From: Candidatus Thorarchaeota archaeon
Lineage (GTDB): Archaea > Asgardarchaeota > Thorarchaeia > Thorarchaeales > Thorarchaeaceae
Reading direction: 5' to 3'
Assembly (NCBI GenBank): GCA_016840825.1
Contig: JAEORN010000151.1
Coordinates: 23,952-87,951, forward strand
Length of the DNA stretch: 64,000 bases
Of this stretch, positions 53,346 to 64,000 are shown piece after piece. Position 1 is the first letter of the stretch. Every line of letters starts with the position of its first letter. The notes below the pieces were generated by a model, which did no database searches, had not been told where the DNA came from, and saw only the letters and a list, made by a program, of their open reading frames with translations. Made by a program: the position numbers and the translations under genes.

Positions 53346-54725
53346 CTGAAAATCTTCGGAACGAGTGGAATTCGCGGCGGAATAGCTGACAAAGTGACAC
53401 CTGACTTGGCTCTAGACCTAGGACGTGCATTGGGCACATTTCTGGAAGGCAAAGGTTCTGTGGGCGTAGGAACGGATGCAAGGACTTCTAGGGAGATGCT
53501 GAAGAATGCCTTCGTTCCAGGGATTATTTCCACTGGGACTAGTGTTGTTGACATCAATGGTGCACCAATGCCTACGACAGCATCACATAGTACTCTTGAA
53601 GGCATCTCAGTATCAGTCATCATAACGGCAAGTCACAACCCTCCCGGAGATAATGGGTTCAAGTTCTTTGTAGGTGGTCGAGAGTTCATCCGTTCAGAGG
53701 AGGTCTTCCTAGAGAGTCGCGTGGAAGATCGCAAATTCCTTGTGGCCGACTGGGCATCTATTGGGAAGGTGTCAACCTGGGATATTCGTCCTACTTATTT
53801 CAAGCGAGTGAAGGAATTCGTTCTTAGTCGAGGACAAATGGGTGATGGGACTCGAGTTCTAATCGATACTGCCAATGGTGCTGCATGTAACTACACACCT
53901 CACCTACTACATGAGCTTGGATTCAGTGTCAGCACAGTTAACTCCAATCCCGATGGTCATTTTCCAGGAAGGCTCGCAGAGCCATCGCCTGCTAATCTTG
54001 TAGATACCATGAAGATGGCAAAGGATGCCGACTTTGGAGTCACAATCGCTCATGATGGCGATGGAGATAGAATTGCAGTCATCGATGAGGATGGTCAATT
54101 CATAGATCAGAATAGAATCATTGCACTTTTTGCGAGGGACGAGGTCAAACGTAATAATGGTGGAAAAGTAGTCGTTTCTATTGACACATCAAGTGTCATC
54201 GATGAATTGGTCAATGCAGCTGGTGGTACCGTGGTAAGGGCACCTTTGGGGTCTCTTCAGGAAACATTTGAGGCTAAGGATAGTGAGGAGATCATCTTTG
54301 CTTCAGAGCCTTGGAAGCCAATCTTCATGAAATTTGGCAAATGGATGGATGGAATCGCAGGTGCCGCACGTATTTCTCAGATGGTTGCAGAGCAGGGTGA
54401 TGGGAGTTGCATCAAACTCATGAAGTCCGTTCCAGAATATCCGATGCTACGAGAGAATGTATCTTGTCCTGACCTCATAAAGCCAAGATTTCTATCGAAA
54501 GTGAAGGAGCTTCTCGTACCAGAGTTCTCTGGCATCGAACAAATCCTGGAAGAAGATGGCATCAGGATAGAGCGAAATGATGGCTCATACGTTCTAGTGC
54601 GAGTATCTGGCACAGAGCCAAAGGCACGACTATACATTGGAGCAAGATCTCAAACGACTTTGGATAATATCGCAGATACTGCTAGGAAGGTCATGAAGCA
54701 GGTTCTTGATGACCTAAGCTCATGA
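53346..54725 (+). CDS. Phosphoglucosamine/phosphomannomutase family phosphohexomutase
   Basis: Alpha-D-phosphohexomutase acting in sugar-nucleotide supply. The N-terminal KIFGTSGIRGG, the phosphoserine loop TASHNPPGDNG, the metal loop HDGDGDR, a sugar loop, and the phosphate-binding RVSGTEPKARLY are all present. In this frame the first codon after an in-frame stop (53343) is CTG at 53346, exactly where the family Met belongs. GGAG (53333-53336) lies 9 bases upstream. The next possible start, GTG 53394, would delete the conserved GTSGIRG. CTG initiation is therefore proposed. About 459 residues. Confidence 0.9.
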   Translation: MKIFGTSGIRGGIADKVTPDLALDLGRALGTFLEGKGSVGVGTDARTSREMLKNAFVPGIISTGTSVVDINGAPMPTTASHSTLEGISVSVIITASHNPPGDNGFKFFVGGREFIRSEEVFLESRVEDRKFLVADWASIGKVSTWDIRPTYFKRVKEFVLSRGQMGDGTRVLIDTANGAACNYTPHLLHELGFSVSTVNSNPDGHFPGRLAEPSPANLVDTMKMAKDADFGVTIAHDGDGDRIAVIDEDGQFIDQNRIIALFARDEVKRNNGGKVVVSIDTSSVIDELVNAAGGTVVRAPLGSLQETFEAKDSEEIIFASEPWKPIFMKFGKWMDGIAGAARISQMVAEQGDGSCIKLMKSVPEYPMLRENVSCPDLIKPRFLSKVKELLVPEFSGIEQILEEDGIRIERNDGSYVLVRVSGTEPKARLYIGARSQTTLDNIADTARKVMKQVLDDLSS

Positions 54726-54767
54726 GAAAGATTAAATCGTGATTCAAATGTGCTAGCACTACCGCAA

Positions 54768-54884
54768 GCCGGGGTCTCCTAGTGGCTATGGAGGCGGTCT
54801 CGAAAACCGCTGTCTTCGTGACGCGTGAGACTCTGTGTACTTTGAAGATACAGAGCACGAATTCAAATCTCATCCCCGGCGCCA
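54768..54884 (+). tRNA. tRNA-Ser(CGA) with an intron in the T arm, CCA encoded
   Basis: Acceptor GCCGGGG (54768-54774) pairs with CCCCGGC (54874-54880); discriminator G and CCA follow. The anticodon arm is GCGGT-CTCGAAA-ACCGC with anticodon CGA (54801-54803). A long variable arm follows (54811-54824). The T stem GTGAG (54825-54829) is separated from its loop TTCAAAT (54862-54868) and CTCAT by 32 bases, which form an intron. Without that insert the tRNA is fully regular. Confidence 0.94.
54830..54861 (+). other. Non-canonical tRNA intron (between positions 53 and 54)
   Basis: The 32-base insert folds as a hairpin (54831-54838 with 54848-54855). The splice sites form an ideal bulge-helix-bulge: exon CGTG (54824-54827) pairs with intron CACG (54856-54859), flanked by 3-base bulges AG^A (cut after 54829) and AA^T (cut after 54861). 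This fixes both junctions to the base. Confidence 0.9.
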
Positions 54885-54900
54885 TTTTCTTTACATAGCA

Positions 54901-55606: not shown

Positions 55607-55948
55607 TCAGAATGAAATTATTGAATATCCTTGATCAGCAAACGAAAGCAAATCGCTATGACCGCTGAGTTCTCCCTTTAGAGGAACATTGAGTTTCTCA
55701 GCAGCTTCAGTTGCATTGAAGGCTGCTGAGCATGCCTTACACGCGTGGTCAATGATGCCTTTATCCATTGCCTTGTCGAATACGGGTAACTTTATCGATC
55801 CATCCGCTATCCCGATGAGTAGTTTTGGAGATGCGCATTCCAGAACGACTGCGACATCATGTCCTTTTTCGTGGAAATTGTTCGCATTCAAGAGCAGGTG
55901 ATATAGCTGCATCTTATTATCGTCAGTAGCTAAAAACAGATACTTCAT
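55607..55948 (-). CDS. DsrE/DsrF-like sulfur-relay family protein
   Basis: A 113-residue DsrE-type protein with the Rossmann-like opening (KYLFLATDD) and HACKACSAAF, which contains the candidate sulfur-carrying Cys pair, then a C-terminal GYSIISF strand. The family trafficks sulfur between proteins. No Dsr genes are nearby. It pairs with the 4Fe-4S gene downstream. Confidence 0.75.
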   Translation of the reverse strand: MKYLFLATDDNKMQLYHLLLNANNFHEKGHDVAVVLECASPKLLIGIADGSIKLPVFDKAMDKGIIDHACKACSAAFNATEAAEKLNVPLKGELSGHSDLLSFADQGYSIISF

Positions 55949-56141
55949 TGTATGGTCCTCATATTTCGAGGAAATGAACTGGAATAATTATCTTTCGAGA
56001 ATCCTAATGCAGTTCTCGTCTTACTCAATGAAATCCGTTGAAAAATAAATAATCGAATTCAAAATAGAAAAAATAATGAAAAATCTCGTATTTCGCTAGT
56101 TTTTTCACACCTTTGATACTATATTATACGAGGGAGTTTGG

Positions 56142-56801
56142 TTGGAAAGACACAATCTGGGTCCATTACTGGCACTCATCGGGATATTTGGAGGGGGCTT
56201 TCTATGGTTCATCCTTTGTGGACTAAGATTTGACTACCTTGTTCAGAATGTCTTTCATGGAGATCCCGGTGAAGCTATCTGGGCACTCGATCCACTATTT
56301 ACGATTCTTGCAGCTCTTCCAAGCATCGTTCTACTTTTGGTAGGCTTTGTTCTGTCACTATTTCCATACATAATCAATCGGAATTATGTAGAATTTGATG
56401 AAGTTCGAAGTCTAAGAGCAGCAAATCTCTTCTATTTAGGAGAGATTTTCATAGTTCTTACAGCAGTTGTGAGTTTTGCCAGTTCTCTCGGAATCCTAAG
56501 TCTAGCCAGCGAAATTACATGGATTTCTGCACATATCATGCTCTTGATTGCAATTACCTGCAGCGTTCATTTGTTTCTCATTCTTCACCAGAATATTCGA
56601 CAAGTTTCTCAGGTACCTCAGGTTTCTATTCTTTCAAAGATTACAATCGTTCTACTTTGCATCGAATTTATCGCACTAACTATTGCGATTGGCTTTTTTC
56701 AGCTGTATGTCTGGAGTTTTATTAGACTTACAGCAATATTCGTTATCTCATCTGGTATTCTTGGAGTATTCCTATTTTTCTCACAAATCATGAGAAATTA
56801 G
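56142..56801 (+). CDS. Multi-pass membrane protein, DUF998-like
   Basis: A 219-residue protein with about six hydrophobic helices (at roughly 8-28, 48-75, 97-120, 125-147, 163-187, 190-213) and short polar loops. The layout resembles DUF998-type proteins but no diagnostic residue is present. TTG start with a GAGGGAG sequence upstream. Function unknown. Confidence 0.7.
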   Translation: MERHNLGPLLALIGIFGGGFLWFILCGLRFDYLVQNVFHGDPGEAIWALDPLFTILAALPSIVLLLVGFVLSLFPYIINRNYVEFDEVRSLRAANLFYLGEIFIVLTAVVSFASSLGILSLASEITWISAHIMLLIAITCSVHLFLILHQNIRQVSQVPQVSILSKITIVLLCIEFIALTIAIGFFQLYVWSFIRLTAIFVISSGILGVFLFFSQIMRN

Positions 56802-56921
56802 ATGTTCTTGATCCTGAATCCGATGAAAATACCAATCTATCTGAATATTGAGTGTAACTCCGAAATGATAAGCATCATTTAAAGGATTAGAAGGATATCT
56901 TCGGGTCGAAGGTGGTGAGTT

Positions 56922-57362
56922 TTGCATTCGGAGGAGTTGAGAAAAAACGGGCTCAAGGCTCTCGTGGTTGTCACTGTTCTACTTGCATCATTGGTTATCG
57001 TAAGACTATCCTATCAACCATTGTTCCCTGAGCATGATAGTCCTACTTACAATCTCACGGTCTGGATCGAACCTATGAATATTACATTTCATCTATCTAT
57101 TGACTTCTTTCTGAGATCTTCTGATGTCGGAATTGTAGAACAACGGTCTGGCGGTATCACATTTCGAATAGATGTCAATCATGATTCGTGTTTTGATGCA
57201 GTCCTTTATAGTCTTCCAGCGGGACTTGAGATGGTCTGGGTGGATGTGTATGTAGATGAGAATGCAAAGACGACTTCTAGTTTAGACATCAGTCAGAAAA
57301 AGACCGTTGCAATTCCCGGTCATATCGTTGAGATATTATTGACACCTTGGACTGATGAATAG
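56922..57362 (+). CDS. Membrane-anchored extracytoplasmic protein, unknown
   Basis: A 146-residue protein with one N-terminal hydrophobic helix (about residues 12-30, ALVVVTVLLASLVIVRL) that acts as a signal anchor, followed by a beta-rich exported domain with no recognised family. TTG start behind GGTGGTGAG. A TATA-like CATTTAAAG lies near 56880. Confidence 0.65.
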   Translation: MHSEELRKNGLKALVVVTVLLASLVIVRLSYQPLFPEHDSPTYNLTVWIEPMNITFHLSIDFFLRSSDVGIVEQRSGGITFRIDVNHDSCFDAVLYSLPAGLEMVWVDVYVDENAKTTSSLDISQKKTVAIPGHIVEILLTPWTDE

Positions 57363-57432
57363 GAACAATCATCAAGTGATGGTTCTAAACACTCAAAAAA
57401 GTTCTATCAAATAGATGCTTGGACCTATAGTG

Positions 57433-57885
57433 CTAACGAAGTGCTTCAGATGCTGTTTCCTTCTGAAGACGATTGAATTTTTTCTTTGTTTCTTCTATCG
57501 CATCTGGTCTGAACAAGTCTAGAATTCTTGGATAATAGGATTGCAGCGTCTTAGCGATAGCAGCTAGTTGTGTTTCATCATCAATTTGTAATAATCTCAA
57601 CTCTTGCTCTTCAGGAGCATTCAATGCTTTCAAAATTACTCTGAAATCATAGAAGAACTGATAGTGCTTTTCCATTGGTACCTTCTTTCCATCATTCTCT
57701 CGTACATCAAGAGAGATAATCTCCCTGTCCTTGATCACAGCAAGGACCAACTGATTCGATTCCAGAAGAGTGTATTTGTTACCAAAGCTCTCTGAATCCA
57801 CATGCTGTGCAATTTGGTACCCATATCTTATGAAGAGAAAATCGAATGATTGCTTCAACATCTCTAGATATGTTGATGTGTTCAT
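57433..57885 (-). CDS. Unknown soluble protein (150 residues)
   Basis: Not recognised. A mixed alpha/beta N-terminal part with a LVLAVIKDREIISLDVRE strand pair is followed by helices with LYxx-type packing and a K/R-rich C terminus. No cysteines and no catalytic motif. It stands alone between rightward neighbours. Confidence 0.6.
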   Translation of the reverse strand: MNTSTYLEMLKQSFDFLFIRYGYQIAQHVDSESFGNKYTLLESNQLVLAVIKDREIISLDVRENDGKKVPMEKHYQFFYDFRVILKALNAPEEQELRLLQIDDETQLAAIAKTLQSYYPRILDLFRPDAIEETKKKFNRLQKETASEALR

Positions 57886-57949
57886 GACTATGCCTTCTCA
57901 CCATACAAGATAAATGGATGGGCACAGTTTCGTATTTTGAGAGAAGAAG

Positions 57950-57969
57950 TGGTACGGATGGCGAGATCG
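57950..57969 (-). repeat. Degenerate tRNA 3'-end fragment
   Basis: TGGTACGGATGGCGAGATCG resembles the tRNA-end repeat at 60696 with three changes in 20 bases. It lies in the gap left of the DUF4336 / MFS / ChrB group, so it could be the left boundary of that segment. Similarity is weaker than for the other copies. Confidence 0.45.
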
Positions 57970-58073
57970 GTGCAGCCAGTATCTGTGTACAGTCATATGC
58001 TTCGGAACAGAATATGCTATTTTAGAACTCTATCACAAATCTTAAACCATATGAACCCCAATCACCCCTGAAG

Positions 58074-58784
58074 GTGAGAATCGCGTCTGATTTACTTTCT
58101 TTTGGCGAGGACATATGGATTGCTGAGGGTCCTATTGTGCGTGACATGCGAATGATGTTCACTACTCGCATGACGGTTGTGAAGCTTGCTAATAGCTCGA
58201 TATGGATAGAGTCCCCTGTCCCTGTTTCAGATGAAACATTGAGGAGCATCACAGAACTAGGTCCTGTCCGATACCTTATAGCAAACACACCAAGACATGT
58301 CTGGAGGCTAGACGCCGCGCACTCATTGTTCCCTGATGCTCAAATGTGGGTTCCACAACCAACCCGCATGACACTACAACAAGGTGACCTACAATTCACC
58401 GGCACTCTGACAGACACTCCACCTCCTGACTGGGCTGATGATTTTGAGCAACTTGTCTTCAAGGGAAGCTCTCTCTTACCAGAGGTCCTATTCTTCCATA
58501 AGAGATCAGGTACAGTCATTATAGGCGACATTATACAAAATAACCGGAAGGTCAAGGGCAGTAGGTATACCAATCTCATGTTCAAGCTTGCAGGTGTTTC
58601 ATATCCTCATGGAGGCGTCGCACGTGACATCAGACTGTCTTTCAGAAAACGCGAAATGGCTCGTGAGTCACTTGAGAAGCTCCTCTCATGGGACTTTGAT
58701 AAGTTGATTATTGCACATGGAGATTGCGTTGAGAGTGATGCAAAGTCCTATGTGGAAGAGAAGTTCCGTTGGCTTAAGCATTAG
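58074..58784 (+). CDS. DUF4336 metallo-beta-lactamase-like protein
   Basis: A 236-residue protein with the DUF4336 pattern: DIWIAEGPIVRD, TRMTVVKL, GPVRYLIANTPRHVWRLDAA, and a late FDKLIIAHGDCVE. It resembles metallo-beta-lactamase folds with a reduced metal site. GTG start with no upstream Shine-Dalgarno sequence. It converges with the MFS gene (4-base overlap of the ends). Confidence 0.82.
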   Translation: MRIASDLLSFGEDIWIAEGPIVRDMRMMFTTRMTVVKLANSSIWIESPVPVSDETLRSITELGPVRYLIANTPRHVWRLDAAHSLFPDAQMWVPQPTRMTLQQGDLQFTGTLTDTPPPDWADDFEQLVFKGSSLLPEVLFFHKRSGTVIIGDIIQNNRKVKGSRYTNLMFKLAGVSYPHGGVARDIRLSFRKREMARESLEKLLSWDFDKLIIAHGDCVESDAKSYVEEKFRWLKH

Positions 58785-60028
58785 TCTGTATTTGTCGGTT
58801 GAGAAACTCTGGTCAATGATGTATCCTGACTTCTGAATTTCAGAAAGATTATGAATGGTATTACAAGAATGATCAAGCATACGACAGCAAAGGCATTTCC
58901 ATAGACATGGCCGTTTGCACCAAGCAACAGACCTAGGCATAACGGTCCAGAGGAATGTCCAACATCCATGATGGATGACAGCAAGCCCAGCGCAGTTCCC
59001 TTTTTCGATGCATCAACTCTCTCTGTAATGAGAGGAGATGTGGTGGAATCTACGAAAGAAATAGCGATTCCAATTGGCACAATTAGCACAATCTGAACCA
59101 GAAGAACAGGTACCATAACTGCGAAAATGATTGACAGACACAGAGCACTCAAGCCAATGACTATGAAAGAGGTCCGTCCGCGAATATCCGACATATGTCC
59201 AATGATAGGTCCGGACATGAGGATGCTGAATGTGAGCAATGCAAAGAGAGGGCCTGCGGTCCACTCGGGTATACCTATAATCTCAGTCCAATAAAGAGGA
59301 AAGAAGAATTCGTACGCTCCATAGAGAAAGAAGGTCCCAGCCTGTGCCAAACAAATTAGAAGCACATCCCATCTGAGAACCTCTCTAATTGAGGTCTGAG
59401 GCTCACTATCCTCCGAGATTGCTATCATATCATGAGTACCTAGGGTTGGGCTCAGTATTCCCGTCATTGCTAAGACACACAATCCACAAAGTCCGCAAAC
59501 AAGGTATATCCCACGGTATACATCAAACCCGAATGAGCTGAAAATCGGAAATGCAAGGAAAAAGCCGCCCACAAGAGGAGCCACCATCCTGCCAATTCGA
59601 GTGGACGAGGAATAGAGTGCCATCTTCTCACCTCTCTGAGCACCATACTTCTGAGCAACGATAGCTAATGCGACAGGTCCTAAGATAGCTGTTGCTATGC
59701 CATGAATCAATCTGACGATAATGAGCTGGAGTGGTGTTGCCACAAGGAAGTAGAGAAAAGGCGCAAAGGCAAAGAGGAATGCCGCACCCCATAGAAGGGG
59801 CTTCGCTCCTTTTCTGTCCATCAGGATGCCAATGGGGATGCTGACTATAATGCCTGTCGCAGGAGAAGCAGCTCCTATGAGCCCCTTCTCTTGGTCTGTA
59901 GCTCCAAGGAATGAGGAAAAATAGGGCAGAGTGGGTGACTTAGCCATTGTCGTACTGAATATGGCAATAGCTCCAAGAATGCATAAGATAAGGAGCTGCC
60001 ATGATTGCTGAAACGAAATCCTTCTCAT
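58781..60028 (-). CDS. Major facilitator superfamily transporter
   Basis: A 415-residue protein with about 12 hydrophobic helices. The loop 2-3 MFS signature is present as GILMDRKGAKPL, and a related motif follows in the second half (GHMSDIRGRTSF). It is probably a drug or small-molecule exporter; the substrate cannot be read. It overlaps the upstream ChrB-like gene by 4 bases (ATGA), so the two are co-translated. Confidence 0.9.
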   Translation of the reverse strand: MRRISFQQSWQLLILCILGAIAIFSTTMAKSPTLPYFSSFLGATDQEKGLIGAASPATGIIVSIPIGILMDRKGAKPLLWGAAFLFAFAPFLYFLVATPLQLIIVRLIHGIATAILGPVALAIVAQKYGAQRGEKMALYSSSTRIGRMVAPLVGGFFLAFPIFSSFGFDVYRGIYLVCGLCGLCVLAMTGILSPTLGTHDMIAISEDSEPQTSIREVLRWDVLLICLAQAGTFFLYGAYEFFFPLYWTEIIGIPEWTAGPLFALLTFSILMSGPIIGHMSDIRGRTSFIVIGLSALCLSIIFAVMVPVLLVQIVLIVPIGIAISFVDSTTSPLITERVDASKKGTALGLLSSIMDVGHSSGPLCLGLLLGANGHVYGNAFAVVCLIILVIPFIIFLKFRSQDTSLTRVSQPTNTD

Positions 60029-60567
60029 TTCTTCTCTCCTGTTCGTATTGACCTTGGGAGTCGTGTTCGAACTTGCGTGTTCAAGAATTGAAATGCATCT
60101 TCACGGGACATCTTTGAAATCTCAGATTCATGTTCACGTCGAATCATCTTGAGAAGCAATCCGACATAGATTGAGTCGAGAATCGAGAATCCAGCTTCAA
60201 TTGCCTCATGATCATTGTTATTCAGATGGGCAAGCCCGCTTAGGGTCAGCTCAACACCTCTGGATTCCAATATTTGATCTATATCCTTCGATATGTCCGC
60301 TCCATGGATTATGGATGCCAGCTCACTCAGAATTGGATCCTCGATGCTGTAATGTTCTATCAAAATCTCGAATGTGCACTTTCCATCATGATGGGTGAAT
60401 GGGATGTCGAGATCTGGAAAATCAAAAGGGATGCCGTATTCCTCTCTGAGAGCAGGACCCGGCCATTGCACGAACTTGAATTCTGCATCAGCATCTATGA
60501 ATCTCCGAATTAGCCAAGGACATGCCACACGATCCACATGGACATGAGAGCGAGTTACCCATTTCAT
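60025..60567 (-). CDS. ChrB-type chromate resistance domain protein
   Basis: A 180-residue protein of the ChrB C-terminal (chromate_resist) family, with WVTRSHVHVDRVACPWLIRR, GIPFDFP, HHDGKCTFE, and ASIIHGADI as conserved blocks. In bacteria ChrB regulates or aids chromate resistance. Here it is coupled to an MFS transporter in place of ChrA, so the pair may export another oxyanion or toxicant. Confidence 0.85.
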   Translation of the reverse strand: MKWVTRSHVHVDRVACPWLIRRFIDADAEFKFVQWPGPALREEYGIPFDFPDLDIPFTHHDGKCTFEILIEHYSIEDPILSELASIIHGADISKDIDQILESRGVELTLSGLAHLNNNDHEAIEAGFSILDSIYVGLLLKMIRREHESEISKMSREDAFQFLNTQVRTRLPRSIRTGEKK

Positions 60568-60695
60568 TTACTTCAGCCTACACACGACAAGTCCTAGTGG
60601 CATAAAGACTTGATGAATTCCCTTCTACCAAACCAGAAGGAAAAGGGTATGATGAAAGGGCTCATTGCTAAGTAGAATATAGGATGAACAAGAAG

Positions 60696-60719
60696 TGGTG
60701 CGGAGGGCGAGATTCGAAT
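60696..60719 (-). repeat. tRNA 3'-end fragment, copy 1
   Basis: Begins TGGTGCGGAGGGCGAGATTC and is, read leftward, the T loop, T-stem 3' strand, acceptor 3' strand CCTCCGC, A73 and CCA of a tRNA (A73 fits Leu). No matching 5' acceptor GCGGAGG lies within reach, so it is not a complete gene. The rest of the 60568-60852 gap shows nothing else. Confidence 0.85.
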
Positions 60720-60852
60720 CTTTAGATGTTTATGCACCTCAAGAAACTGAATCCGTGAGAATCATAGACGAATAGCAATCAGAAACTACTACTGGTAATT
60801 GCGTTAAAAGACAATCAAATACTATCAAGATGTCACTCCTATATGACACATT

Positions 60853-61404
60853 ATGAACAGCAAGGTTCAAACAACCAGTGAATTGGAAACAATCTTTCAT
60901 AAACATAGTTTCTCAGATTTCAAGTGGACTACACCTGATAATATAGTAATATCCAACTGGGTTCGAATGAAATGTAAGTTTGGATGTCCTGACTATGGAA
61001 GGTTCGCAGCATGCCCACCAAACACTCTTTCTGTTTCTGAATGTCGGGAGTTCTTTAACGAATACACAGACATAGCTATCTTTCACCTCGGAAAAAAACT
61101 TGATAGTCCAGATGAGCGGCATGATCTAGTCAGAGATTTTGACAAGAAACTGCTAAAATTAGAGAAAGATGTATTCCTTGCAGGCAATGTCAAGACCTTT
61201 CTGCTATTCGCTGGGAGCTGTTCTCTTTGTAAGGAGTGTGTCAACCTAAGGGAAGAGTGTAAACAGCCATACCATGCTCGTCCTACAGCAGAAGCGATGG
61301 CTGTTGATGTCTTCTCGAGTGTTCGGAATATCGGCTATCCAATTGAAGTGCTAAAGGATTACACTGATACCATGAACAGGTATGCATTTCTCTTAGTAAG
61401 ATGA
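60853..61404 (+). CDS. DUF2284 metal-binding protein
   Basis: A 183-residue Cys-rich protein with the DUF2284 pattern: MKCKFGCPDYGRFAACPP, then AGSCSLCKECVNLREECKQP and a late RPTAEAMAVDV. The cysteines probably hold an iron-sulfur cluster or metal. Enzymatic role unknown. The gene lies alone between tRNA-end repeats 1 and 2. Confidence 0.88.
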   Translation: MNSKVQTTSELETIFHKHSFSDFKWTTPDNIVISNWVRMKCKFGCPDYGRFAACPPNTLSVSECREFFNEYTDIAIFHLGKKLDSPDERHDLVRDFDKKLLKLEKDVFLAGNVKTFLLFAGSCSLCKECVNLREECKQPYHARPTAEAMAVDVFSSVRNIGYPIEVLKDYTDTMNRYAFLLVR

Positions 61405-61436
61405 AATCTGATGTCAAGAACAGATAGATGTAAAGA

Positions 61437-61460
61437 TGGTGCGGAGGGCGAGATTCGAAT
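61437..61460 (-). repeat. tRNA 3'-end fragment, copy 2
   Basis: Same 24 bases as copy 1, ending at the tRNA CCA (TGG at 61437-61439). It lies 741 bases after copy 1, right after the DUF2284 gene. The flanking sequence diverges immediately on both sides. Confidence 0.85.
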
Positions 61461-61517
61461 GGCACAATCCTTTTTACACATTTCAGAGGCGATAGAATAG
61501 AGTTGAGGGAGTAGCAA

Positions 61518-61943
61518 ATGAATCAAGGAGGACAGAATCCGAGAATACTACTTCGCCCGTGGATGGTCGCAATCCTGTGGCTCTGGTTCGGAGCCGTGCT
61601 CTGCCTCATGATCTTGAGAATCGACTTAGATTCACCAGAGTTCCAATCCCTATTTCTCACTGTTCTCTATGGTGGTGGCCCTGCAGTTATATTTGTAGTA
61701 ATTATCATTGTACTAAGTCCTACCCCAGAATGGTCCAGTACTGCCAAGCGATTGTGTGGAATTGGACTTGTCATGATATTCAGTGCGTATTCTATCGCAG
61801 AAACTTTTCATAACACGCTCTATGGGGTCACTGCCTGCGTCATAGGAATCATTGTACTTCTTATTTCCACCTCATACCCAGGGGCTATACTAGGATATAC
61901 TGACACTGAACAACCTGAACGAAATCTAACTGAGCAGAAATGA
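61518..61943 (+). CDS. Small integral membrane protein, unknown
   Basis: A 141-residue protein with four hydrophobic helices (at about 15-33, 46-65, 78-92, 101-120) and a charged C-terminal tail. Not recognised. The ATG has AGGGAGTAG upstream. It stands alone between repeat copies 2 and 3; copy 3 begins 2 bases after its stop. Confidence 0.7.
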   Translation: MNQGGQNPRILLRPWMVAILWLWFGAVLCLMILRIDLDSPEFQSLFLTVLYGGGPAVIFVVIIIVLSPTPEWSSTAKRLCGIGLVMIFSAYSIAETFHNTLYGVTACVIGIIVLLISTSYPGAILGYTDTEQPERNLTEQK

Positions 61944-61944
61944 G

Positions 61945-61991
61945 TGGTGCGGAGGGCGAGATTCGAACTTGCAATTCGCGTGTGAACTGGC
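61945..61991 (-). repeat. tRNA 3'-end fragment, copy 3 (extended)
   Basis: The shared 23-base core (ending in GAA, with C as base 24) plus a further 23 bases that match copy 4 at 18 positions. It reaches back through the T stem into the variable arm. The T-stem 5' strand has decayed (GCAAG against CTCGC), consistent with a non-functional relic. Confidence 0.85.
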
Positions 61992-62015
61992 AAGCAGCTT
62001 GCAAAAGGGTGACTA

Positions 62016-62786
62016 TCAGCTCAAACTTGCACAACATGCAGGATTATCGTAGTATTCTTTTGTCACTCTAATCAGATTCTGATCTTGGGTAAGCAATGCT
62101 GCACCATCCATCCAATCAGATACCGTCAGTAAGGTGGTCATATCGGAGATAAGCATTCCAAGTGAGCCAACGGAACAGTCTAGCAACCGATAGGTGCCTA
62201 GCATAGAGAAATCCCCTTTCTCGACGACTCCTTGATTCAGAGCTAGGTTTATTCGAATCTTCCTTTTTTCTTTGGCATCTATTAGCGTATCCTTGATTCC
62301 TTCCAAGACATCTGAAAGTGCTATGAAGATTGTAATCTCCTTCTGTGCAGTCTTAATCAGCGACTTCATCCGATTGATAATGTTACTTTGCCCTCTGATG
62401 ATGTATGCAATCTCGAAGTCCCCCGGTTTTTCGGCTGTGTCATAGATTGGTATCAGCATATCCAAGAGTGTTTCAGCTTCTCTCAGCTTCTCATGATATC
62501 TCTCTGTCAAAAGGGACTTCAAGTTGGAAATCGCTTCCTCGGGTGCCACAGGTATGTATATGTTCGGATTCCCGCGTTGGACTACTATCAATCCCTTCTT
62601 AGCAAGTCCTTCAAGAGCATAGTATATCTTGGAATCTGGAATGCCTGTTTCATTGCAGAGTGTACCAGCTGAGATACTTGGGTTCGCCAAGAGTGCAACA
62701 AATGATAACGCTTCATGAGTGGACAAGTCCAAGTCCTTCAAGCGAGAAACTATTCGATCACGCGCACCACTTCCTTCGGGACTCAT
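62016..62786 (-). CDS. TrmB-family transcriptional regulator
   Basis: An N-terminal winged helix (about residues 18-80; LDLSTHEALSFVALLANPSI and ETGIPDSKIYYALEGLAKKG) is followed by a short coiled coil and a C-terminal phospholipase-D-like effector domain, as in sugar-responsive TrmB proteins. The effector is unknown. It is divergent from the AhpD-like gene across a gap holding a perfect palindrome, suggesting it regulates that gene. Confidence 0.88.
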   Translation of the reverse strand: MSPEGSGARDRIVSRLKDLDLSTHEALSFVALLANPSISAGTLCNETGIPDSKIYYALEGLAKKGLIVVQRGNPNIYIPVAPEEAISNLKSLLTERYHEKLREAETLLDMLIPIYDTAEKPGDFEIAYIIRGQSNIINRMKSLIKTAQKEITIFIALSDVLEGIKDTLIDAKEKRKIRINLALNQGVVEKGDFSMLGTYRLLDCSVGSLGMLISDMTTLLTVSDWMDGAALLTQDQNLIRVTKEYYDNPACCASLS

Positions 62787-62828
62787 AGATATCTTCTCCT
62801 ACTTCTTGTAAGTAGAAGTCAGAGAATC

Positions 62829-62836
62829 TTTATATT
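62829..62836 (+). promoter_or_regulatory. TATA box of the AhpD-like gene
   Basis: TTTATATT preceded by AGAGAATC. Transcription would begin near 62858, placing the palindrome at 62863-62876 directly downstream of the start. Confidence 0.5.
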
Positions 62837-62862
62837 GTTTTCTCCTACCCCGTAGTAGTAGA

Positions 62863-62876
62863 CAAGAGCGCTCTTG
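62863..62876. promoter_or_regulatory. Perfect 14-base palindrome, candidate operator
   Basis: CAAGAGCGCTCTTG lies in the divergent gap between the TrmB-type regulator and the AhpD-like gene, just after the predicted transcription start of the latter. A bound dimer there would block transcription. GGAGGT (62888-62893) follows, 8 bases before the ATG. Confidence 0.55.
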
Positions 62877-62901
62877 GTTCAATATTCGGAGGTATTATGA
62901 A

Positions 62902-63198
62902 ATGGACGGAAAAGTAAAACTACTCATTGCCGTTGGTGCTTCTATTACTGCCAATTGTCAGCCTTGTCTAGCAACAGCAGTTGAACAAGCTCAAGCAGCA
63001 GGTGTGAACAAGAGAGAAATCCTTGAAGCAATCGCAATAGGTCGGATTGTCAGAAGAGGATCTATTGGGAAGATGGACAAATACACCTCAACCTTGACTG
63101 GAGAAAATGCCGTTGGTTCTGATGAGTGTCCATTTGGCTCAACAGAAGATGAGGTTCAGAAATGGATACAACAGGACGATGGTTGCAAGTGTTCCTAA
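62902..63198 (+). CDS. AhpD/carboxymuconolactone decarboxylase-like protein
   Basis: A 98-residue all-helical protein with the AhpD-type redox motif CQPC (residues 20-23) following a GASITANxxx segment, and a helix with ILEAIAIGRIVR. The family includes peroxidase-reducing disulfide proteins. A Cys-rich C-terminal tail (CPFG and KCS) is unusual. ATG behind GGAGGT. It forms a pair with the divergent TrmB-type regulator between repeat copies 3 and 4. Confidence 0.82.
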   Translation: MDGKVKLLIAVGASITANCQPCLATAVEQAQAAGVNKREILEAIAIGRIVRRGSIGKMDKYTSTLTGENAVGSDECPFGSTEDEVQKWIQQDDGCKCS

Positions 63199-63379
63199 CT
63201 CACTAGAAGATATACACACTATAGATATCCTGAGCTATCCATTAATGAGTGCTACTTTTGGAGTTGCTAAGAAGAACTATCTTGGCAGCTCCCTTTTTTG
63301 GAGAAGCAAAATATCCTGGTTTCGTACTTACAATTAGCTAAGAAACCGTCATGAAGCAATCGAAATATTTAGAATGAGA

Positions 63380-63426
63380 TGGTGCGGAGGGCGAGATTCG
63401 AACTCGCGATTCGCGTGAGAGCCGGC
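63380..63426 (-). repeat. tRNA 3'-end fragment, copy 4 (extended)
   Basis: The best preserved copy: T arm GCGAG-TTCGAAT-CTCGC, acceptor CCTCCGC, A73 and CCA are intact, and the sequence extends about 23 bases into the variable arm. The anticodon arm and 5' half are not recognisable, so it is still a fragment. It lies 15 bases from the end of the last gene. The 63199-63379 gap holds nothing else that I can name. Confidence 0.85.
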
Positions 63427-63441
63427 ATTCGACTCCCAGAT

Positions 63442-64000
63442 TCAGCTAAATTCATGCTCAAAAAGAAATTTCGGATTTGGATTGACATCTTGGATGTATT
63501 CACTTGGTGCCTTTATTACCTCTAAGAGAAAAGATCCGGCTGCTTGTGATTTCCACCAGTCTCTCCGAAATTCATCTTCCAGATGCTTTCTCAGAGAGGA
63601 TGCATAAATCATTCCTAGAATATATGTAGGCAAAGTCAAATCATCCTTCATCATATGAAGATCAAGAAGCCAATATACTCCGGGATACGATGGAATATAG
63701 TACTTATCTGCAAGTTGTCCAAAACGATTAGTAGCTTTATTGATTGACATAGACTTTTTCCAAAACTCAAGTTTCAAAATCCCTCTGATTGAGAAAAAGG
63801 AAAGATAGAATGCAAACATGAATTTTTGGCGATCAATGATTTCAGAAACTACATCAGGCTGTAACTTCAGCATGTCAGTTAGATACATATCATCTCTAAG
63901 TATGCTTTCAAAGAACAGTGAAAAGAATTCATCATTGGCAAAAAACGGAGTATCGTCGTCCTGAATCTCACTAGGTTTTATGATGGTTTGATATGTAAAC
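63442..64000 (-). CDS. Unknown protein, 5' end beyond the window (possible metallopeptidase C terminus)
   Basis: The frame is open from base 64000 leftward without a stop, so the gene begins outside the window; an internal ATG at 63888 is not the true start. The visible 185 residues are helical, with YPGVYWLLDLHMM, YILGMIYASSLRKHLEDEF, and WWKSQAAGSFLLEVIKAPSEYI. This loosely recalls the helical C terminus of M2/M3-type peptidases, but no HExxH is visible, so the call is tentative. Confidence 0.6.
   Translation of the reverse strand, partial: FTYQTIIKPSEIQDDDTPFFANDEFFSLFFESILRDDMYLTDMLKLQPDVVSEIIDRQKFMFAFYLSFFSIRGILKLEFWKKSMSINKATNRFGQLADKYYIPSYPGVYWLLDLHMMKDDLTLPTYILGMIYASSLRKHLEDEFRRDWWKSQAAGSFLLEVIKAPSEYIQDVNPNPKFLFEHEFS

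Follow-up and report, generated by a model that had tools for sequence, protein, structure and literature searches.

Arrays of mostly single-gene cassettes bounded by tRNA-Leu 3′ ends in Thorarchaeota suggest serial integration at the T loop

The closest described counterparts of the arrays considered here are bacterial. The additive islands of Ca. Methylopumilus are reported to carry repeats of the last 20 nucleotides (nt) of tRNA-Lys and to span 330 bp to 42 kb (PMC10872708), and small cassettes at tRNAs, with exchange between genera, are described for Ca. Actinomarinales (PMC7771536). In Archaea, 39 of 68 thaumarchaeal integrated elements are placed in tRNA genes (PMC6563490), Heimdall (Asgard) elements reported at tRNA genes are much larger than the cassettes found here (PMC8813620), fragments of tRNA-Thr are reported from Caldiarchaeum (PMC3293823), and split and permuted tRNAs are treated elsewhere (PMC3218864). 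Integrons have been reported from Archaea, with enrichment in Asgard archaea (PMC9668308), and a review of archaeal tyrosine recombinases extrapolates that some of these enzymes cut at tRNA loop edges, the T loop included (PMC8371274). Here we examine a 64,000-nt stretch of a Candidatus Thorarchaeota genome (contig JAEORN010000151.1, positions 23,952 to 87,951; hereafter the window), in which genes lie between direct repeats of the 3′ end of a tRNA-Leu gene. We found no description of such arrays in Asgard archaea in the open-licence PMC literature, which is weak evidence of absence.

We consider it likely that the array arose through successive insertions of small, non-autonomous cassettes, each directed specifically to the T loop by a recombinase acting in trans, downstream of the thorarchaeal tRNA-Leu(TAG) gene. 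The 24-mer TGGTGCGGAGGGCGAGATTCGAAC occurs at 60696, 61437, 61945 and 63380, always on the plus strand and with 0 or 1 mismatch each, and 100 dinucleotide shuffles gave 0 matches, on which grounds we rejected a chance origin. The minus-strand reading of its 23-mer, TTCGAATCTCGCCCTCCGCACCA, comprises the T loop, the 3′ side of the T stem, the acceptor and the CCA of tRNA-Leu; complete tRNA-Leu genes of relatives, starting with GCGGAGG, terminate in the identical 23 nt. A fifth copy, at 57950, is decayed, with 2 of 18 leading bases mismatched. The copies at 61945 and 63380 resemble each other deeper into the tRNA (90% over 48 nt), the latter being the rightmost and least decayed in the window. 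Over 66 pairs of successive copies, from the window and its relatives, identity halts at the CCA (median common prefix 1 nt), the exceptions being one 17-nt pair in locus L065 of a relative and one 6-nt pair in the window. A first-pass annotation, made from the window's sequence alone, had described four same-orientation copies and a degenerate one at 57950, had read them as the T loop-to-CCA end of a tRNA, and had noted that homology ends sharply at the CCA; these observations were all borne out.

The checks proposed by that annotation were run on relatives, comprising 47 related genomes (G numbers) and loci fetched from them (L numbers). No tRNA-Leu gene was found within the 64-kb window. 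The genes left of its array are syntenic with the relatives' tRNA-Leu(TAG) locus, which points to this gene as the parent of the array, presumably situated beyond 64000. In nine genomes the locus is empty, with a gene that we take to be dsrE-like, 55–81 bp, and then tRNA-Leu(TAG) (L165, L170, L172, L179, L182, L153, L024, L146, L151). In eight it is occupied, with a 3′ fragment 53–73 bp from dsrE (L167, L168, L078, L063, L073, L176, L177, L149) and the tRNA, where on the contig, further out than the fragment (in inverted orientation in L073 and L176). For L070 and L071, the fragment closest to dsrE is about 0.3 kb away. Alignment of G034 (L172, empty) with G016 (L078, occupied) gave 94% identity of the flanks, a 31-bp overlap between the aligned blocks where they meet at the tRNA end, and copies 2,228 bp apart. 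The corresponding values were 86–93%, 27 bp and 730 bp for G034 and G037 (L177), 92.5%, 22 bp and 364 bp for G043 (L153) and G047 (L167), and 88–95%, 34 bp and 632 bp for G043 and G044 (L168). The tRNA gene is intact at the occupied sites of the aligned pairs; the target tRNA is restored, its 3′ part being directly repeated at the far end. The comparison across relatives that the first-pass annotation had called for thus shows that single cassettes are present at this locus in some relatives and absent in others, and that their edges coincide with the repeats.

Several further observations concern this locus. The G016 bin holds two different tRNA-Leu(TAG) loci (L078, L085) and 17 near matches to the repeat and may mix two species, and comparisons involving it were confined to single contigs. 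On its other side the tRNA has a mostly conserved neighbourhood: most fetched copies of the locus have an S3Ae-like open reading frame (ORF) there, although none was found in L066, L073 or L096. The ORFs upstream of Leu(TAG) in L172 presumably encode ribosomal protein S3Ae, uS15 and a Kae1/Bud32-like protein, and on this reading we rejected the tRNA-adjacent gene as a candidate integrase. The tRNA-Leu(TAG) is inverted relative to the fragments or usual flanks in L176 (13112-13199), L166 (6224-6311), L073 (2050-2137) and L066 (4969-5086), which looks like a flip of the tRNA segment between inverted sites.

Fragments of this kind are widespread among relatives and strongly polar. An exact scan of GTDB genomes with the 23-mer returned 27 stretches, 24 titled Candidatus Thorarchaeota and 3 titled archaeon (one metagenome-assembled genome (MAG), Dive96_bin4.146); near matches numbered 3 to 17 per genome in 17 of the 17 genomes reached from those records, and the reversed pattern had 0 matches across the same 17. 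A displaced tRNA-Leu 3′ fragment, or tail, is present in at least 23 of the 47 related genomes, a lower bound that comes from loci chosen for fetching; 10 of the 23 rest on a single fragment, seven with 2–3 mismatches (G005, G025, G026, G031, G038, G044, G047), and for G044 and G047 empty alleles provide further support. Typically, an intact tRNA-Leu (TAG, GAG or CAG) has one to six same-strand fragments downstream of it, some 0.2–4.5 kb apart, the tRNA being inverted or missing on some contigs. Of 63 Leu-type tRNAs, 22 are followed within 5 kb by same-strand fragments, 33 in total, as opposed to 0 fragments downstream on the opposite strand, 3 upstream on the same strand and 5 upstream on the opposite strand. 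The 24-base core, whose positions the first-pass annotation had proposed to list genome-wide, therefore amounts in the relatives' loci to tRNA-Leu genes and displaced fragments lying mostly downstream on the same strand. Downstream matches were also found for 6 of 19 Ser tRNAs, at least 4 of which are a nearby tRNA-Leu itself, for 1 of 7 Thr tRNAs, for 2 of 3 Leu tRNAs with another tail, and for 0 of 13 Pro, Gln, Arg, Asp and Ile tRNAs together. Separately, 3′ fragments or copies of other tRNAs, including a Thr-like tail (L075, ~10035, minus strand) and Leu with another acceptor, were seen in L075, L082 (6154, 6751) and L069 (1419, 2224), and they suggest that the process extends beyond one acceptor sequence.

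We compared the contents of 66 intervals between tails, after excluding three chance matches, Ser-type ends and the loci L069 and L082. Some of the intervals are related copies (e.g. C13/C26/C40/C56 and C41/C48), and one, C42, of 129 bp, is weak. The 66 have a median length of about 0.6 kb, and 51 of them hold exactly one ORF of at least 60 amino acids (aa), 22 in the sense of the tRNA and 29 antisense. Because orientation is not fixed, an mRNA-derived origin appears disfavoured. Genes fit closely between the repeats, with a median gap of 21 nt from stop codon to repeat (null mean 144) and 66 nt from start codon to repeat, and complete ORFs cover at least 70% of 60 of the 66 intervals, where other DNA gave a null mean of 22.2 and a maximum of 32 in 200 draws. 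Family scans covered 77 ORFs, made up of three older window ORFs and 74 of the 80 cassette ORFs that reach 60 aa; among the families listed (at most 25), a list that by itself leaves room for an integrase among the 77, were several GNAT, CxxCxxCC, DUF2284 and PrcB_C members, one AAA/OLD-like protein, and transposase-like and HNH-like matches in single members.

Some cassette families recur at other tRNA-Leu loci. DUF2284 genes occur in the window, where synteny indicates the Leu(TAG) locus, and in the Leu(GAG) arrays of L075 and L154, whose anticodons were read by eye (L154 has an unusual C33). Homologues of the window ORF at 56142 adjoin tails in L177 and L164, both at Leu(TAG), in L076, and in L075, next to the final tail of its Leu(GAG) array, and the G037 Leu(TAG) and G004 Leu(GAG) versions are 80.5% identical in DNA compared with 71.6% for their flanks. 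L065 and L154 carry members of a 144-aa family at Leu(GAG), and L090 has one at Leu(TAG), with no recognisable tail. One 0.5-kb cassette of L081 (G016), encoding 152 aa, is 85–89% identical to those in L065, L075 and L158, whereas long flank blocks on the same contig are 67–69% identical; within the other clade the cassette is 84–86% and the long flanks 79–85% identical. The block of high identity starts at one tail and ends at the other or up to 17 bp beyond. That the cassette is more alike than its flanks points to an exchange between clades, the ends of the block falling at the repeats.

These data bear on the possibility that the repeats are scars of larger viruses or plasmids that brought their own integrase and were then reduced by deletion to one host-useful gene. 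Archaeal elements are reported to integrate often in tRNA genes and to stack at one site (PMC6563490), and some intervals here do reach 2.5–4.5 kb with several ORFs. Against this, insertions between close relatives are already small (0.36–2.2 kb) with intact edges, a 0.5-kb cassette looks to have been exchanged whole, and complete ORFs fill most intervals, unlike the outcome of random deletion; we therefore regard scars of larger elements as unlikely.

The tRNA-side boundary of the fragments was profiled in 78 distinct fragments, 5 from the window, after 7 of 85 catalogue entries had been dropped (three chance or non-Leu, one weak, two with a different Leu acceptor, one lying too close to the end of its contig); the 78 may include a few unusual-intron tRNAs (L063, L176) and miss some fragments filed as full tRNAs by a lax pattern. 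In 52 of the 78, homology begins abruptly at tRNA positions 54–57. For these truncated fragments, agreement with the consensus is at background up to the base preceding the T loop (19% there), rises through 42, 77, 87 and 96% at positions 54, 55, 56 and 57, and stays at 85–100% as far as A76. Assignment to the class required no more than 2 of the 5 GCGAG bases to match, a choice that by construction depresses agreement at those five positions while leaving 54–57 and positions further upstream unaffected. In the intact tRNA, the T arm offers inverted arms around an overlap, GCGAG-TTCRAAT-CTCGC. Beyond the CCA, fragments carry about 9 pyrimidine-rich bases, and cassette ends show no terminal inverted repeats (mean best 14-nt score 7.95 versus 7.86 for shuffled pairs, n = 65). 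Mismatches between tail and tRNA are commonest at position 57 (9 of 53 pairs), which later change of the tRNA could explain, and they were not used. Apart from this profile, intron-like insertions within the T loop, the presumed integration site, occur in tRNA-Leu genes or fragments of L176 (12398, 12877), L081 (5484) and L145 (10883-10905). Two pairs of different cassettes have common starts, over the first 160 bp after the CCA in L058 (4471-4312) and L167 (1232-1391; 92.5%) and over the first 376 bp in L155 (interval C50) and L060 (2166-1791; 93%), hinting at a common end or a cargo swap.

A search for the enzyme used three recombinase models. PF00589 matched 18 of 47 genomes and PF00239 14 of 47, while PF16795 matched 0 of 47, a model that detected only 3 of 14 controls; 11 of the 23 array genomes (G003-G008, G011, G014, G031, G033, G036) and 14 of the 24 others matched none of the three. 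We examined 31 of the 36 tyrosine-recombinase places with their flanks. One adjoins a tRNA, Ser(GCT) in L216; the others have no tRNA in their stretch, and none lies by tRNA-Leu. Leu-tail-like sequences at these 31 places amounted to two matches, each with 4 of 19 mismatches (L202, L206), about the number expected by chance on our own estimate. Tyrosine recombinases of 226–280 aa that are 94.7–96.9% identical occur on two G044 contigs and one of G047 (L194, L195, L199), and the neighbours in L199, the only ones read, look chromosomal. A unit of 0.3–0.6 kb is too small for an integrase, so the enzyme would act in trans or the mechanism would not be a recombinase's; a mobile helper could be missed because MAGs lose plasmids and viruses.

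We propose that each cassette carries its own tRNA-Leu tail, from T loop to CCA with the pyrimidine tract, and would recombine with the T loop of the resident tRNA gene, its tail restoring the gene while the old tail is displaced downstream as a scar. New cassettes would enter beside the tRNA, with older ones further off. The enzyme would be a recombinase, most likely of the tyrosine type, supplied in trans by a virus, a plasmid or another host, and the cassettes may travel as circles. The first-pass model of small integrated cassettes is supported, in checks whose outcome might have contradicted it, by presence and absence of single cassettes, repeat-bounded edges, polarity and one apparent exchange. 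For the parental tRNA and any recombinase near it, which that annotation had proposed to look for, synteny points to tRNA-Leu(TAG), and neither in nor next to an array was there a match to a tyrosine or serine recombinase.

Several points weigh against serial cassette integration. No match to PF00589, PF00239 or PF16795 lies on any mapped array contig, recombinase matches do not track with arrays (12 of 23 array genomes versus 10 of 24 others), and IMG/VR holds 0 exact matches to either 23-mer T-loop variant. The T-loop edge is not universal, since the homology extends further in 21 of the 78 fragments and another 5 fall in between, and truncated fragments do not preserve the left arm expected of a standard tyrosine recombinase core. 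No empty allele nearly identical to the window was found (the locus is rearranged in the window's nearest relative, G010), and no tail is recognisable near the window's dsrE. Near the L081 cassette, the next 0.8–0.9 kb are 79–80% identical and short upstream blocks including the tRNA 72–88%; slow evolution may explain part of the cassette's identity, although it does not easily fit a between-clade identity at or above that within the clade.

The longer homologies, together with 3′ sequence common to all targets and the 11 array genomes lacking a match to the three models, are also what RecA-type homologous or microhomology recombination would offer, with circles or fragments bearing tRNA-Leu recombining with the chromosomal gene and no dedicated recombinase. 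Free recombination would not yield a homology edge within about 3 nt at the T loop in 52 of 78 fragments, and 23 bp is very short for homologous recombination, so that we consider this route very improbable. A transposon or casposon that duplicates a 21–23-bp target at the tRNA end, the repeats being target-site duplications rather than att sites, would give an identical final structure and is rejected as scarcely credible: terminal inverted repeats are absent (Cas1 was not searched for), only the pyrimidine tract is common to cassette ends apart from the two pairs with common starts, and homology varies in length (20–23 bp, longer in 21 of 78), where target duplications would be of fixed length and the Aciduliprofundum boonei casposase is reported to duplicate 14–15 bp (PMC6614799).

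Beyond serial integration at tRNA-Leu(TAG), we see about even chances that Thorarchaeota use tRNA-Leu genes more generally as gene-capture platforms, in an integron-like manner, with the T loop as both entry and cassette site, host genes held as single-gene units, and a trans-acting recombinase shuffling them among isoacceptor loci and species.

Features of the window are collected in Table 1. A Pfam scan found the genes between the copies as the first-pass annotation had described them (DUF2284; a membrane protein; a regulator/AhpD pair; DUF4336, MFS and ChrB); the membrane protein, which has no Pfam match and is so judged by the look of its sequence, is the product of 61518-61943, whose stop codon lies 1 nt from the repeat. 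That annotation had begun the array at 57950, and it probably extends further left, over 55.95–57.95 kb, because two genes there have homologues in cassette position, the 56142 ORF and, more weakly, 56922-57362 (31–35% identity, L081). Relatives of the DUF4336, MFS+ChrB and TrmB+CMD genes occur in G003, G004 and G031 on stretches without a detected Leu tail (L160-L163, L224), so the cassettes may sample ordinary thorarchaeal genes. Outside the array, window positions 54767-54890 are up to 84–87% conserved in relatives, whose pgm is often followed by a tRNA-Ser(CGA) gene, and ARAGORN found no tRNA in this part of the window.

Table 1. Coordinates of array and flanking features in the window.
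Feature	Position	Strand	Remarks
tRNA-Leu 3′ copy	63380..63427	-	core 63380-63402, plus ~25 nt of further tRNA/intron-like homology; compare L012
tRNA-Leu 3′ copy, extended, decayed T stem	61945..61990	-	
tRNA-Leu 3′ copy, truncated at T loop	61437..61459	-	
tRNA-Leu 3′ copy, truncated at T loop	60696..60718	-	
tRNA-Leu 3′ copy, decayed	57950..57967	-	2/18 mismatched
Presumed next cassette, cut by window end	63403..64000		ORF 63442-63888 (-), 148 aa, no Pfam match
Cassette	61968..63379		TrmB-type regulator 62016-62786 (-); CMD/AhpD-like 62902-63198 (+)
Cassette	61460..61944		141-aa protein 61518-61943 (+), no Pfam match
Cassette	60719..61436		DUF2284 60853-61404 (+); homologues are cassettes in L075, L154
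Cassette	57973..60695		DUF4336 58074-58784 (+); MFS 58781-60028 (-); ChrB_C 60025-60567 (-)
Probable older array part, no repeat recognisable	55949..57949		ORFs 56142-56801 (+), 56922-57362 (+), 57433-57885 (-)
Host-flank gene	55607..55948	-	presumably dsrE-like
Host-flank gene anchoring the locus in relatives	53394..54725	+	presumably pgm, sugar phosphomutase-like

The arrays look like a simple gene-collecting system in Asgard archaea, whose insertion enzyme was not found in our searches, and the empty and occupied pairs make the process directly testable and pose the question of which enzyme acts and where it resides. Like the SSV, pNOB8 and pT26-2 types as described, they show integration at a tRNA 3′ end, with the gene restored and a direct repeat left; those types carry or split an integrase (PMC8371274), whereas we found no integrase gene in or beside the units, many of which are too short for one. 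Tycheposons of Prochlorococcus likewise have tRNA-bordered cargo, but at 4–200 kb and with a tyrosine recombinase in those described (via PMC10872708). With integrons and clusters of attC sites lacking integrases (CALINs) the arrays share short single-gene series between recombination sites, and integrase-less arrays are reported there too (PMC9668308); they differ in having a tRNA tail in place of a folded attC as the site, in targeting a tRNA gene, and in carrying genes in both orientations, where integron genes are generally described in one. The recurring tRNA-end repeats, the extension of the island at the tRNA and the variable content seen here are features of the bacterial additive islands, in which direct repeats of part of a tRNA are likewise described as marking inserted DNA of varying content. 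Compared with those accounts, the arrays are archaeal, mostly single-gene, with a median of about 0.6 kb, and spread over several leucine isoacceptor loci, and their T-loop edge has been profiled over many fragments. As far as they are described, the bacterial additive islands are therefore the nearest kind, and the thorarchaeal arrays are an archaeal, mostly single-gene variant of them rather than a separate category.

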